Shown here piece after piece: positions 58,503 to 63,223 of a stretch of DNA of 64,000 bases. This DNA comes from Catellatospora paridis. GTDB taxonomy: Bacteria > Actinomycetota > Actinomycetes > Mycobacteriales > Micromonosporaceae. Positions within the stretch are counted from its first letter, which is position 1; each line of letters starts with the position of its first letter. Both the position numbers and the translations under genes were made by a program. The stretch is from positions 310,001-374,000 of the forward strand of contig NZ_ML769312.1 of NCBI RefSeq assembly GCF_009720365.1. The letters run 5' to 3'. Under the pieces are notes generated by a model that saw only the letters and a list, made by a program, of their open reading frames with translations, made no database searches and was not told the origin of the DNA.

Positions 58503-59819
58503 TCACCGGGTGCCGCCAGCTCCCGTGACCGGGCAGCCGCGCGCCGGGGCGAACCGCGCGCGCAGGCCCGACGGGGCGAGCCGGCCGAGGAACCTGGGTG
58601 CGGCCGTGACGGCGTTCGCCGACGCGACGGTGTAGGCCTGGGCCAGCCGCGAGGTCGTCAGGGTGAGCTGGCGCATGGCCAGGGCCGAGCCGACGCACAC
58701 CCGCGGCCCGGCGCCGAACGGCAGGTAGGCCGTCCGCGGTGCGGGCCGTCCGGTGAGCCAGCGGCCCGGGTCGAACTCGTCGGGGCGCTCCCACCAGCGC
58801 GGATCGCGGTGGATCAGGTACGGGTTCACCAGCACCTCGTCCCCGGGGTTCAGCGTCCAGTTCCCGAGCGTCGTCGGGCGGTACGCAGTCCGGGTCATCA
58901 GCCACACCGGCGGATACAGCCGCAGCACCTCCTTGACCACCGCCTCGGCCAGCGGCAGCCGCGCCTTCGGGAGCTCATCGCCGGGTCCCGCCTCGTCGCG
59001 CAGGTCGGCGGCCAGTTCCGGCCGCAGGGCCAGTTCCCGGACGATGGAGACGACGGCGGCCGCCGGAATGCCGTGTCCGCCCATGAGGATGCCGCGCAAC
59101 GTCGCCATCACCGTGCCGTCCGGCATCGCCGGGTCGGCGTCGAGCAGGAAGTCCAGCAGGTCGGCCGGAGTCGCCGGGCGCGGGTCCGCGCGTCGCCGCC
59201 GGACCAGGGCGGTCAGGGTCTGCACGGTGTGCCGGTGTACCCGGAAGAAGCGGCGGTGGCGGGGCAGCGGCAGCCAGGCGGGGAACTGGTACGACGACGC
59301 GGTGAACGGCTCGGTGATGTCGAGGTTGTCGGCGAGCAGTTCCGCCAGCCCGGGCGCGTCGCGGCCGAAGCAGTATTCGGCGATGGCGTGGGCGGTGAAC
59401 GCGCGCGCCAGGGGCAGGACGTCGACCTCGCTTGCGGCGGCGGGCCGGGTCAGTTCGTCGAGCAGTGCGACGGTGCGGGTGTCGGCGGCCGCGGCGGCGG
59501 TGTGGTTGAGTCCCGGCCACACCGTGCGGCGCGCGGACATCCAGGCGGCGGCCTGGCCGGCGGCGTCGCCCAGGTCGGGCCGGGCGTCGAAGGGCGCGAG
59601 TTCGGTGAGGAAGTCGGTGTTGGTGCGCGCGAGCACCTCGTGGGCGGTCTCGGGGGCGGTGACGAAGACCGTGCGCTCGTCGAAGGCGAACACGTCGCCG
59701 TACTCGTGGTGGGTGCGCCGCAGGAAGCCGATGCGGTCGTCGTCGTAGGCGGGCGTGTTGCCCATGAGCCAGTGCCCGCGCGGCCCCGGTGGCCGGGTGC
59801 GCTGCTCGGCCTGTGCCAT
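58503..59819 (-). CDS. Cytochrome P450, probable peptide-modifying enzyme
   Basis: Heme monooxygenase-fold protein of 438 residues. The heme loop FGAGPRVCVG holds the Cys375 ligand, and EVLR (297-300) with DEFDPGRW gives the K-helix/meander pair. The I helix reads MGGHGIP (246-252), where most P450s have A/G-G-x-D/E-T-T; the acid-alcohol pair for O2 activation is missing. P450s that cross-link aromatic residues of peptides often deviate here. It lies 70 nt downstream of a 31-residue aromatic-rich peptide gene on the same strand, suggesting that peptide as substrate (inference). GGGGAG precedes the ATG. Confidence 0.92.
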   Translation of the reverse strand: MAQAEQRTRPPGPRGHWLMGNTPAYDDDRIGFLRRTHHEYGDVFAFDERTVFVTAPETAHEVLARTNTDFLTELAPFDARPDLGDAAGQAAAWMSARRTVWPGLNHTAAAAADTRTVALLDELTRPAAASEVDVLPLARAFTAHAIAEYCFGRDAPGLAELLADNLDITEPFTASSYQFPAWLPLPRHRRFFRVHRHTVQTLTALVRRRRADPRPATPADLLDFLLDADPAMPDGTVMATLRGILMGGHGIPAAAVVSIVRELALRPELAADLRDEAGPGDELPKARLPLAEAVVKEVLRLYPPVWLMTRTAYRPTTLGNWTLNPGDEVLVNPYLIHRDPRWWERPDEFDPGRWLTGRPAPRTAYLPFGAGPRVCVGSALAMRQLTLTTSRLAQAYTVASANAVTAAPRFLGRLAPSGLRARFAPARGCPVTGAGGTR

Positions 59820-59889
59820 CGCCGTCTCCCCACGGCCGCAGGTCCCCGGACCGAGGTCCCGCGACCGGGGTTCCGAGATGCCGGTCGGC

Positions 59890-59985
59890 CTACTCCGGGT
59901 AGTTGTAGAACCAGTACGGATACCGGCCGCTGACCTGGGACCTGCCCATCAGGCGAGCGGCGACGTGGCGGAGCACACGTGCCAT
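59890..59985 (-). CDS. Putative RiPP precursor peptide for the adjacent P450
   Basis: A 31-residue reading frame with an ideal ribosome binding site (AGGAGGG, 5 nt before ATG). The first 20 residues are basic and helical (MARVLRHVAARLMGRSQ...), as in a leader. The end, RYPYWFYNYPE, packs four Tyr, one Trp and one Phe into eleven residues. It lies 44 nt after a condensation-domain-like gene and 70 nt before a P450 gene, all in one direction. A hairpin with CCCCGG/CCGGGG arms in the gap to the P450 may lower P450 expression relative to peptide. P450-modified RiPPs (biarylitides, cittilins, tryptorubin-type atropopeptides) use short precursors with aromatic cores. No known core sequence is matched by memory. 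Confidence 0.72.
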   Translation of the reverse strand: MARVLRHVAARLMGRSQVSGRYPYWFYNYPE

Positions 59986-60029
59986 GGAAACCCTCCTATA
60001 TAGAGAGGCGTGTATTGATGTGCATCGTG

Positions 60030-61586
60030 TCATGCGCGGCGGACGGGTGCAACGGGTTCGGGCGTCGCGGGCAGGTCCGGGCTCGCGGCCGACGTCCAGG
60101 GCCAGGGGAGATGGCCGAGCGCCGCATCGACCAGCAGCCGTTCGACCGCGCGCAGGAAGCGTTCGGCGACGTCGGGGGGTAGGTGGGCCGTGTCGCCGGT
60201 GACGGCCAGGCCCATCCCGCCGGGTGTGTCGATCACCTCCACCCGCATCAGCCAGGTGAACGTGTCCAGGCCTTCGGCGACCGCGAAACTGGTGTCGTCC
60301 ATGGCGGCACGCAGCGCGACGGCGTCGAGGTCGTCGCCGGGCAGCTCGGCCTCGGGGGCGAGCCGGATGTCGTTGAAGTAGCAGTGCTTGTTGACCCCGG
60401 TGGCGTACGGCAGCCCGGCCGCCTCGTGCGCCCGCGCCATCTGGTCGGGGTCGTAGTACGCGTGCCGGTATGCCTCCACCGCCGCGTGCCAGACCCGGGG
60501 CAGCGCCTCGGCGAACACGGGCCGGTCGGCCACGCTGATCACCAGCAGGCCGAGCTGGTTGAGTTTCGAGATCGCCTCCCGGTACTCGTCAGCGGACCGG
60601 TTGTTGACCATCGTGTAGATCCCGCACGTGTCCTGCCCGGACCAGGCCGTGATGACCCCGGCGACAGCGGTCAGCAGCACCGTGGAGCTGGACACCCGCT
60701 CACGCCGGGCGACGGTGCGTGCGGCCGCGTCGGCGGCCTGTGAGGTCAGCACGCAGCGCTGGAAACGAGGGGAGTGCACGGGCCCGACGCTGGGCAGCGT
60801 GTCGGCGGGCAGGCGATGGTGGCTGTCCAGCCAGTACCGCACCGCGCGGGCATTGCGGCGCTGCAGGCGGTCGCTGTCCTCCAGTCGGGCGATGTCGGCC
60901 GACTGCGCGGGTGGCGGCGTCGGCACCGCCCCGCGCAGCAGGAGCAGCCGCAGGTCGCGCAGCACGAGTTCGGCGGCCCGGAAGTCGACGGTGGTATGGC
61001 TGAACACGACGACGATCCGGCACACCCGCTCGCCCGCCACCAGCAGCGCGACCCGCTGCGGCCACTCCCGGTCGTGGTCGAACGGGGTGCTCGCCAGTTC
61101 GGCCGCCACCTGCGCCGCGAGCGCCGCGCCGTCGTCGCCGGGCGGCTCGCCGACCGGGATCACCAGCACCGGCTGTTCGCCCTGCTCGGCGACGACCTGG
61201 CGCAGCTGCCCGTCGACCTCCTGGACGCGGGTGCGCAGCGAGCTGTGCCGGCCGACGAGGGCGCTCACCGCACGCAGTGCCGACGGCACGTCGAGGGCGG
61301 CGCGGCGCGGTGCGGCGACCACGCGCCGCAGGCTGAACATCGCGTGGCTGGCGCCGTGGCGGCGGATGGCGATCCACAGGGCGCGCTGGCCCCAGGTGAG
61401 CGGCGCGCCCGGGTCGGCCGGTCCGTCGAACGTCGCTGACAGGTACGCGGCGTGCGCGGTGCCCGGCACGTCGAGCCTGGTCGTCATCTCCGGCAGGCCG
61501 TCGCCGGCGACGGCCACGCCGCCGGGGGGCAGGACGATGTCGCGGAGCGCGGTTGCGGCGTCGGCGGTGCGGCCGTGGGTGGACAT
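60030..61586 (-). CDS. Stand-alone condensation-domain homologue
   Basis: A 518-residue protein of the NRPS condensation/acyltransferase superfamily (CAT-like fold). The active-site motif is FSHTTVDFRAAEL (about residue 196): the catalytic second His and the Asp of HHxxxDG are kept, the first His is Ser and the Gly is Phe. LTWGQRALWIAIRRHG (about 64-79) matches C-domain motif C1 and RHSSLRTRV motif C2. No carrier or adenylation domain is attached. Such proteins act as acyltransferases, condensation enzymes or inactive scaffolds. The ATG is 6 nt after TACGCT (leaderless). It may share a transcript with the peptide and P450 genes. Confidence 0.85.
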   Translation of the reverse strand: MSTHGRTADAATALRDIVLPPGGVAVAGDGLPEMTTRLDVPGTAHAAYLSATFDGPADPGAPLTWGQRALWIAIRRHGASHAMFSLRRVVAAPRRAALDVPSALRAVSALVGRHSSLRTRVQEVDGQLRQVVAEQGEQPVLVIPVGEPPGDDGAALAAQVAAELASTPFDHDREWPQRVALLVAGERVCRIVVVFSHTTVDFRAAELVLRDLRLLLLRGAVPTPPPAQSADIARLEDSDRLQRRNARAVRYWLDSHHRLPADTLPSVGPVHSPRFQRCVLTSQAADAAARTVARRERVSSSTVLLTAVAGVITAWSGQDTCGIYTMVNNRSADEYREAISKLNQLGLLVISVADRPVFAEALPRVWHAAVEAYRHAYYDPDQMARAHEAAGLPYATGVNKHCYFNDIRLAPEAELPGDDLDAVALRAAMDDTSFAVAEGLDTFTWLMRVEVIDTPGGMGLAVTGDTAHLPPDVAERFLRAVERLLVDAALGHLPWPWTSAASPDLPATPEPVAPVRRA

Positions 61587-61592
61587 CACGCC

Positions 61593-61729: not shown

Positions 61730-63223
61730 ATGCCCGGGATCGGCGAACCACCGCTACAACCATGCCGGACAGTCCCCGGGCTGCTGGCGTGGCGGCGTGC
61801 CCGCAACCCCTCCGACGTCGCCATCGAGGTCGCGGGCGTCGACACGCTGACCTTCACCCAGTGGGACGACGCCGCGACCGCGGTCGCCGCGGCGCTGCGC
61901 GCCAAAGGCCTCGCCCCGGGCGCGCCGGTCGGGCTCGTCTTCGCCGGCCGCGACTGGACGAGCTTCGCCGTCGCGTACTGCGGCGTGCAGCGGGCGGGCG
62001 CGGTCGCCGTGCCGCTGCCCGACCAGCTGCCCCCGGCCCGGCTGTCCCAGCTGCTGGCCGGATGCGGCGCCGACCTCGTGATCAACGGGCGCGGCGACGT
62101 CGACGCGCTCGTCGAGACCGGTATGCCGGACGCCGACCGCCTGGCCGCGGCGGACCCGCTCGACGCCGCCCGCCCCGGTGAGATCGCCCAGATCCTGTTC
62201 ACCTCGGGCACCTCGGGACAGCCCAAAGCCGTCGCCGCGACCCACGCCAACCTCACCGACGGTGCGCTGATCCACCCCAAGCGGCTGGCGCTGGCCCACT
62301 CCCGGCGCTTCCTGCACGCCTTCCCGATCGGCACCAACGCCGCGCAGACCATGCTCGTCAACGCGCTGACCGCCCGGCCCTCGGCGCTGACCCTGCCGCG
62401 CTTCACGCCCCGGCGCTTCGCCGCCCGGCTGCCCGAGGTCGGCACGGTCTTCCTGGTGCCCGCGACGGCGATCGAGCTGCTCGAATCCGGTGCGCTCGAC
62501 GGCGTCGACCTGTCCGGTGTGCACCTGGTCGGTTCGACCGCCGCCCCACTGCCCCCGGCCGTCGCGCTGCGGCTCAACCAGGCATTTCCCAACGCGGCGA
62601 TCGTCAACCACTACACCTCCACCGAGGCGGCCCCCGCCCACACCAACATGGTCTTCGACCCGGCCCGCCCCGACGCCGTCGGCCGCGTGACGACCGGCGC
62701 GGTACGCATCACCGACGCCGACGGCGGGCCCGTGCCCGACGGCGAGGTCGGCCACGTGTGGCTGCGCTCGCCGCACGCCCGCCGCTACCTCGGCGACGAG
62801 ACCGCCACCCGCGACACGTTCCGGGACGGCTGGGTGCGCATGGGCGACCTGGGCCGCCTGCGCGACGGCTTCCTGTTCCTGTCCGACCGTGACAGCGACG
62901 TGGTCAAGTCGGGCGCGTACAAGATCTCCACGCTGGAGGTGGAGGCCGCGCTGCACGAGCACCCCGGCGTCGCCGCGGCCGCGGTGGTCGGCGTGCCGCA
63001 CCCGGTGCTCGGCGCACGGCTCGCCGCGGTGATCGTGCCCCGCCCGGACGCCGCCGACGTCGGCCTGCCCGGCATCCGGGCGTTCCTCGCCGAGCGGCTC
63101 GCCGACCACCAGCTGCCCGGCGACCTGCTCGTGCTCGATCAGCTCCCGCGCAACGACGCGGGCAAGGTCCTCAAACGACAGCTGGTGGGACTCTTCCCCG
63201 CCGGCACCGGAGGTGACGCGTGA
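61730..63223 (+). CDS. AMP-dependent acyl/aminoacyl ligase (stand-alone adenylation enzyme)
   Basis: Adenylate-forming enzyme of 497 residues. A3 phosphate loop LFTSGTSGQPKAVAATHANL (about 162-181), A5 NHYTSTEAAPA, A7 RMGDLGRL, A8-like SDVVKSGAYKISTLEVEAAL and A10 NDAGKVLKRQL with the catalytic Lys are all present. There is no carrier domain, so it loads a separate carrier protein or CoA. The substrate (fatty, aryl or amino acid) cannot be read by eye. The ATG has AGGAGA 9 nt upstream; GGAGACGTTCTCC there could form a small hairpin over that site. An in-frame ATG at 61688 is less likely. The next gene overlaps by 4 nt. Confidence 0.88.
   Translation: MPGIGEPPLQPCRTVPGLLAWRRARNPSDVAIEVAGVDTLTFTQWDDAATAVAAALRAKGLAPGAPVGLVFAGRDWTSFAVAYCGVQRAGAVAVPLPDQLPPARLSQLLAGCGADLVINGRGDVDALVETGMPDADRLAAADPLDAARPGEIAQILFTSGTSGQPKAVAATHANLTDGALIHPKRLALAHSRRFLHAFPIGTNAAQTMLVNALTARPSALTLPRFTPRRFAARLPEVGTVFLVPATAIELLESGALDGVDLSGVHLVGSTAAPLPPAVALRLNQAFPNAAIVNHYTSTEAAPAHTNMVFDPARPDAVGRVTTGAVRITDADGGPVPDGEVGHVWLRSPHARRYLGDETATRDTFRDGWVRMGDLGRLRDGFLFLSDRDSDVVKSGAYKISTLEVEAALHEHPGVAAAAVVGVPHPVLGARLAAVIVPRPDAADVGLPGIRAFLAERLADHQLPGDLLVLDQLPRNDAGKVLKRQLVGLFPAGTGGDA

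Follow-up and report, generated by a model that had tools for sequence, protein, structure and literature searches.

A precursor and cytochrome P450 gene pair from Catellatospora paridis that most likely specifies a cross-linked peptide of the actinomycete cittilin type

Several described types of ribosomally synthesized and post-translationally modified peptides (RiPPs) pair a cytochrome P450 with a short precursor peptide. The cittilins of Myxococcus (CitA, CitB, and a methyltransferase) derive from a precursor published as 27 residues long (PMC8708641), and the cittilin-type RiPPs of actinomycetes, which include shandoamide (SanB), the syrinamides (SyrB), and citreamide (CreB), likewise combine a P450 with a short precursor. 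Biarylitide precursors are given as five residues (PMC13417212; PMC8708641), and atropopeptides are described by a leader motif KSLK or one of its variants (RSLK, ESLK, KSRK, KPLK, PSLK) together with a conserved Trp at core position 2 (PMC11450843). Bridges between the first and third residues of a core, with Pro in the middle, have precedent in the Tyr-Trp biaryl bond described for the Tyr-Pro-Trp of pseudosporamide (PMC7277628). A similar Pro-centred Tyr-x-aromatic spacing is implied by the described synthesis of micitide 982 (PMC13250620), and the same Tyr(i)-Trp(i+2) link is attributed in a review to a genome-mined P450 RiPP (PMC11002830). Here, a locus of this general kind is described from a 64,000-nucleotide stretch of Catellatospora paridis DNA (the window; contig NZ_ML769312.1, positions 310,001 to 374,000 of the forward strand), in which a 31-codon gene stands directly upstream of a P450 gene. 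The pair very probably constitutes a two-gene RiPP cluster whose P450 would bridge Tyr1 of the core to the Tyr or Trp at position 3 and probably also Trp4 to Tyr6.

The precursor gene occupies positions 59890 to 59985 of the minus strand (31 codons and a stop) and encodes MARVLRHVAARLMGRSQVSGRYPYWFYNYPE, made up of a leader, MARVLRHVAARLMGRSQVSGR, and the core region YPYWFYNYPE. A Shine-Dalgarno sequence, AGGAGGG (59991 to 59997, minus strand), lies 5 nucleotides (nt) before the ATG at 59985, and the precursor starts in most of the relatives compared are preceded by GGAGG or something similar. The leader half is basic: of the 21 residues that precede the first Tyr of the core, 5 are Arg, 1 is His, and none is Asp or Glu. 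The peptide ends in RYPYWFYNYPE. Seventy nt separate the precursor stop from the ATG of the P450 (59819), which is encoded on the same strand. In all of these respects, from the length of the gene and its ribosome-binding site to the basic leader half, the aromatic C terminus, and the position upstream of the P450, the initial annotation had described the sequence accurately. No Shine-Dalgarno sequence precedes a longer in-frame start (ATG at 60033), whose only counterparts are in loci L028 (ATG) and L029 (GTG). The peptide has zero Pfam or NCBIfam family matches. A search of literature text for YPYWFY, PYWFYN, RYPYW, and VSGRYPYW returned a single RYPYW, in a plant review; figures and supplements lay outside this search. 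Literature searches by topic did not turn up this exact family either, although a prior listing is possible.

Conservation of the gene pair was followed outward from the window's family. Among 201 genomes of that family, its own included, a P450 search matched 25 at E ≤1e-60, and in every one of the 17 genomes (again with its own) in which P450 identity is at least 56%, a short open reading frame (ORF) adjoins the P450 gene; the 17 peptides were aligned. When the 201 genomes were searched with a degenerate DNA pattern for VSGRYxYW, 16 of them yielded 17 matches, all beside this P450 by their coordinates, two of the matches being on two contigs of genome G110 that are possibly copies, whereas the reversed pattern, used as a control, gave 1 match. 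The pattern missed the precursor of genome G118, which was found by translation. In a scan of named genomes, one regular expression recovered a matching precursor at 26 of 53 loci, and reading of the sequences added precursors at L070 and at the L069/L045 locus; two Xanthomonas loci in the scan had another kind of short ORF, ending in YIYTY. Pooling of all loci and removal of duplicate P450s left 83 distinct loci, of which a single regular expression found 42, missing QVSG types and a few others. At all 53 of the distinct loci with at least 41% tblastn identity, a cut set after the list was seen, the P450 is accompanied by a short ORF whose core has the form Y-x-[Y/W]. In three cases (L040, L041, L169), one P450 is flanked by two precursors, RY[DE]WWYYHQA upstream and RY[IM]YWPYHYE downstream. 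The short ORF is more than a chance occurrence. With a simple ORF caller, the P450 was the sole gene family common to the 17 regions, no other (the precursor aside) occurring in more than 4.

Comparison of codons reveals clear purifying selection on the protein within genus-level groups. The ratio of nonsynonymous to synonymous substitution (dN/dS) is 0.112 for the leader and 0.07 for the core among 6 Catellatospora genes, 0.134 and 0.184 among 8 genes of the Streptomyces group, and 0.048 and 0.188 among 6 genes from Nonomuraea and Bailinhaonella. Core positions are numbered from the first core Tyr, and the 39 cores of the window clade, the P450 group to which the window belongs, include 23 distinct ones. 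Tyr at position 1 and Trp at position 4 are invariant (39/39 each); position 3 holds Tyr in 36 cores and Trp in 3, and position 6 holds Tyr in 38 and His in 1. Tyr at position 8 is found in only 20 of the 39, and positions 2 and 5 are variable, often Pro. Among 18 cores from sister groups, Tyr1 is again universal (18/18), position 3 is divided between Tyr (12) and Trp (6), and 12 cores have Trp at position 4. By its spacing, the aromatic set looks like two i to i+2 pairs: 1-3, common to the window clade and the sister groups, and 4-6, particular to the window clade. The initial annotation had tied its proposal to a short ORF conserved beside orthologous P450s, to protein-level selection, and to the aromatic positions across homologues. 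All three have held up: the ORF is present at 53 of 53 distinct loci at or above 41% identity (with a mixed picture below), within-group dN/dS is well below 1 (leader, 0.05-0.13; core, 0.07-0.19), and the aromatic positions are the conserved ones in the aligned cores.

The proposed cross-linking enzyme (58503 to 59819, minus strand) is a cytochrome P450 of 438 amino acids (PF00067, E 7.1e-58) with a heme loop FGAGPRVCVG, an ExxR motif, and the I-helix sequence GGHGIP (residues 247-252). Its best NCBIfam match is RiPP P450 ApyO (E 1.5e-41), at 142.5 bits far under the model cut-off of 525. Ordinary monooxygenase P450s have an acid-alcohol pair in the I-helix; here GGHGIP takes its place. The form GGHG[VI]P is found in 30 of the 32 window-clade P450s and GGYGVP in 2 of the 32, while [AS]xGVP forms occur in the P450s of the Saccharopolyspora shandongensis, MYTYW, and Y-x-W types and GHETT in 5 of 6 from cittilin-like loci. 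Sequence searches of the PDB returned, at the thresholds used, mainly CYP51-, CYP3A4-, and CYP17-like chains and no RiPP P450 title; two matches bore only the title "Putative cytochrome P450."

In a tree of 66 P450 proteins, in which the branching among the window clade and its sister groups is unsettled and several long branches are unsure, the window clade forms one group of 32 (support 94/57, recovered in 92% of the bootstrap replicates). Two further well-supported clades are the S. shandongensis group (3 proteins) and the cittilin-like group (6 proteins), and the 5 P450s from tryptorubin loci lie far from the window clade. Ten precursor labels change 9 times on this tree, which is the minimum, compared with 32.1 times for shuffled labels; L044, L045, and L070 are marked there as lacking a precursor, their Y-x-W precursors having been found later. 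By counts that include the centre genome, the P450 is matched at 1e-75 in 32 of 354 genomes of the window's own family, 5 of 200 of the Nonomuraea family, and 8 of 249 of the Saccharopolyspora family, and at 1e-80 in 8 of 392 genomes of the genus Streptomyces.

The locus thus has the features of P450 cross-linked RiPPs in the broad sense (cyptides), a conserved short precursor beside a P450 and conserved aromatic core residues. Within these, it most likely belongs to the cittilin-type P450 RiPPs of actinomycetes, because the P450 of one S. shandongensis locus (L065) is related to the window's, at 46% identity, and the precursor there, whose leader can be aligned, has a core of the Y-x-Y-W type, MTSYVRHIAARLVGKTRMGGFYTYWIIAN. 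By the name of the compound, L065 is likely the san (shandoamide) cluster; the next P450 match in the same genome reaches only E 1.7e-37. The suggestion that the core stood outside described families is therefore not sustained, and its novelty is lower than was claimed. The window clade forms a P450 group separate from that of S. shandongensis, has RYxYWxY cores with the extra pair W4/Y6, and mostly has SGR rather than GGF before Tyr1. A Y-x-Y-[YW] feature, based on the YIYY and YTYW loci of this analysis rather than on a published definition, is represented by Y-x-Y-W in 36 of the 39 window-clade cores and by Y-x-W-W in 3.

The resemblance to the cittilins themselves is more distant. Cittilin loci share with the window a short precursor, of 27 residues with a Y-I-Y-Y core, beside a P450, and the profile of the window's family finds such P450s: it matched 22 of 96 genomes in a sample of the Archangium family at 1e-45, and of 20 Myxococcaceae loci fetched, 10 have a 27-residue precursor, ending in YIYY in 9 and YHYY in 1. 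The P450s beside YIYY precursors are, however, only about 32% identical to the window's (compared with 46% for L065, these two being presumed to stand for CitB and SanB, respectively), the cores end at YIYY, and the I-helix GHETT again marks 5 of 6. A methyltransferase gene follows the P450 in the one cittilin-like locus checked (L117), whereas none is common to the 17 window-type regions. A cittilin in the strict sense was accordingly rejected, as the window core runs on to FYNYPE and no third gene is shared by the 17 regions. Elsewhere, in Xanthomonas (L080, L082, L104), a short ORF ending in GRKLGYIYTY precedes a P450 of about 33% identity and looks like a cittilin relative. Further short ORFs, some of them with aromatic tails, stand beside other distant P450s, namely TWYYYPIY (L025), GFYKY (L115), NQWPPEHFYG (L178), and SGAYLYVPKICR (L020), and in two Streptomyces genomes (L106 in G201 and L107 in G206) a different short ORF, MIAKLLRKLSFTRHYGAYGAHEWDAYAGAEQD, or a variant of it stands before a distant P450.

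Other described types were considered and set aside. Micitide 982 and pseudosporamide have the same Tyr-x-aromatic spacing, and GRYPW precursors occur at two related loci, L044 and L070. In a comparison with the descriptions of these peptides rather than with their cluster sequences, the window core is set apart by its Tyr3 and by a further aromatic pair; it reads Tyr-Pro-Tyr-Trp and is not of their Tyr-Pro-Trp ring type. Candidates for micitide- or pseudosporamide-like peptides are the Y-x-W short ORFs found upstream of related P450s: GRYPWRH (L044), GRYIWIP (L045), GRYPWIP (L070), GRYVWYH (L067), GRYHWATPTG (L145), and GRYHWAW (L146). Atropopeptides such as tryptorubin are alike in their two-gene cluster of a P450 and a precursor of similar length with an aromatic C-terminal core. 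On inspection, none of the KSLK, RSLK, ESLK, KSRK, KPLK, or PSLK motifs occurs in the precursors of the window locus and its relatives, whereas control loci with tryptorubin-type cores, found by core pattern in 8 of 295 genomes and the source of the 5 P450s in the tree, do carry KSLK. This absence, together with the lack of Trp at position 2 of YPYWFYNYPE and the distance of the P450s in the tree, rules out an atropopeptide. Biarylitides likewise combine a P450 with a ribosomal peptide whose aromatic residues have one residue between them, but their precursors have five residues and that of the window 31.

A route from precursor to product can be proposed from the sequences. The basic leader (LRHVAARLxG...VSG), in which LRHVAARL looks helical by eye, would dock on the P450 and present the C-terminal core at the heme, where the enzyme would oxidize and couple aromatic side chains. 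The most likely pairs are Tyr1 with Tyr or Trp3 and Trp4 with Tyr6, which would place two adjacent three-residue cyclophanes in YPYWFY. Leader and tail may then be trimmed by a housekeeping protease, a step made probable for the leader by the lack of any further gene family shared by the 17 regions.

Several observations weigh against this proposal. The cross-linked pairs are deduced from conservation and from analogy, and the lost acid-alcohol pair of the I-helix, which marks an unusual enzyme, is no proof of coupling. The AlphaFold model of the P450 is of low confidence (mean pLDDT 62.3). When gene sets that mix core types are used, dN/dS rises to 0.338 for the leader and 0.587 for the core over 18 Micromonosporaceae genes and to 0.391 and 0.369 over all 32 precursor genes, as is expected if cores diversify. 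Below 41% identity, several P450s have no recognized precursor or a different one. Near the cut, L146 (39.8%) has a precursor, L071 (40.7%) has none, and L178 (40.7%) has a different short ORF, as do the more distant L020, L021, L025, and L115, and the searches made found no precursor at L071/L154, L022-L024, or L179. Finally, Y6 is missing from the S. shandongensis group, and one window-clade core (L113), which is a residue short, has His as its sixth residue; both facts weaken the case for the second bridge.

It is conceivable, and is put forward tentatively, that one and the same P450 forms two i to i+2 links in succession, Tyr1-x-[Tyr/Trp]3 and Trp4-x-Tyr6, to give a tandem cyclophane, the second ring having been added to an ancestral Y-x-[Y/W] ring and the enzyme working without the acid-alcohol pair. 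If so, the loci with two precursors would represent one enzyme acting on two cores. A RiPP of the same kind with another ring pattern is also possible, if doubtful: Tyr1-Trp4 and Tyr3-Tyr6, cittilin-like links inside Tyr1-x-Tyr3-Trp4, linkage to a backbone nitrogen, or a single ring. The Y-x-Y-W cores of the sister groups, which retain only Y1, Y3, and W4, are in keeping with such patterns, but Trp3 in the RYDWW and RYEWW cores and the Y-x-W cores of related loci fit a 1-3 bridge, and Y6 is kept in 38 of the 39 window-clade cores.

It is improbable that the P450 modifies the precursor by hydroxylation, nitration, or a similar reaction in place of cross-linking. Peptides can be hydroxylated or nitrated by P450s (PMC12186263; PMC13192836). 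Nevertheless, spaced aromatic residues are the invariant feature of the cores, related cores resemble cross-linked peptides, and the acid-alcohol pair of ordinary monooxygenases is missing from the I-helix.

A GC-rich stem-loop between the two genes (59830 to 59870, minus strand; a 19-position stem with mismatches and a 3-nt loop) bears on a further alternative. In 25 of 27 loci examined, no more than 1 in 100 dinucleotide shuffles attains the stem score, with no stem above chance in the other two (L032 and L042), and the arms co-vary between species, for example, TCGC/GCGA in some and TCAC/GTGA in others. The fold energy of the whole region is less striking (z of -2.1 for the window copy and -1.2 to -3.9 for four other loci). 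A role in setting the ratio of precursor to enzyme or in shielding the precursor mRNA is proposed. Many Tyr and Trp codons followed by a stem-loop ahead of an enzyme gene would also suit a regulatory leader peptide, with the aromatic codons and hairpin as an attenuator and the peptide not a substrate, but this is judged very unlikely. Purifying selection acts on the half of the peptide that is not aromatic, the leader, and L040, L041, and L169 have a second copy downstream of the P450, a position from which attenuation is not possible. Moreover, among five folded copies, only L030 has five consecutive T following the stem, L036 having TTCTTCTT, and P450s of the wider family also adjoin cittilin-like precursors.

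On its other side, the precursor is bordered by a condensation-domain gene (60030-61589) and an AMP-binding ligase (61730-63223). These open a group resembling nonribosomal peptide synthetase (NRPS) genes that extends from window position 60030 to about 68.8 kb, beyond the window (L027:10030-18798), and comprises a lone condensation protein, the ligase, a C-A-T module, a second condensation protein, and a glycosyltransferase. Three species of the genus have retained the first condensation gene together with the ligase gene. That the P450 tailors the product of these adjacent genes, the first two of which also accompany it in two close species, and that the short ORF is incidental is scarcely credible, as in the remaining 14 of the 17 regions tblastn found neither of these two genes, the short ORF is in 17 of 17, and in the three species that have both genes other neighbours are syntenic too. 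The condensation gene, present in only 3 of 17 loci, was therefore rejected as part of the RiPP locus. Of the initial designation of a P450-modified RiPP locus, the conserved pair of ORF and P450 stands, whereas its range, drawn to 61586, takes in a gene that does not belong.

Two-gene clusters of this kind are now delimited in Catellatospora, Micromonospora, Allorhizocola, Streptomyces, Nonomuraea, and Bailinhaonella, with precursor genes short enough for annotation to miss. Of particular interest are the probable two-ring core and the altered I-helix of the P450. The graded cores associated with related P450s (Y-x-W, Y-x-Y-W, and Y-x-Y-W-x-Y) offer a natural series for understanding how one P450 fold gains rings, and the P450s of the family are candidate enzymes for making rigid cross-linked peptides.

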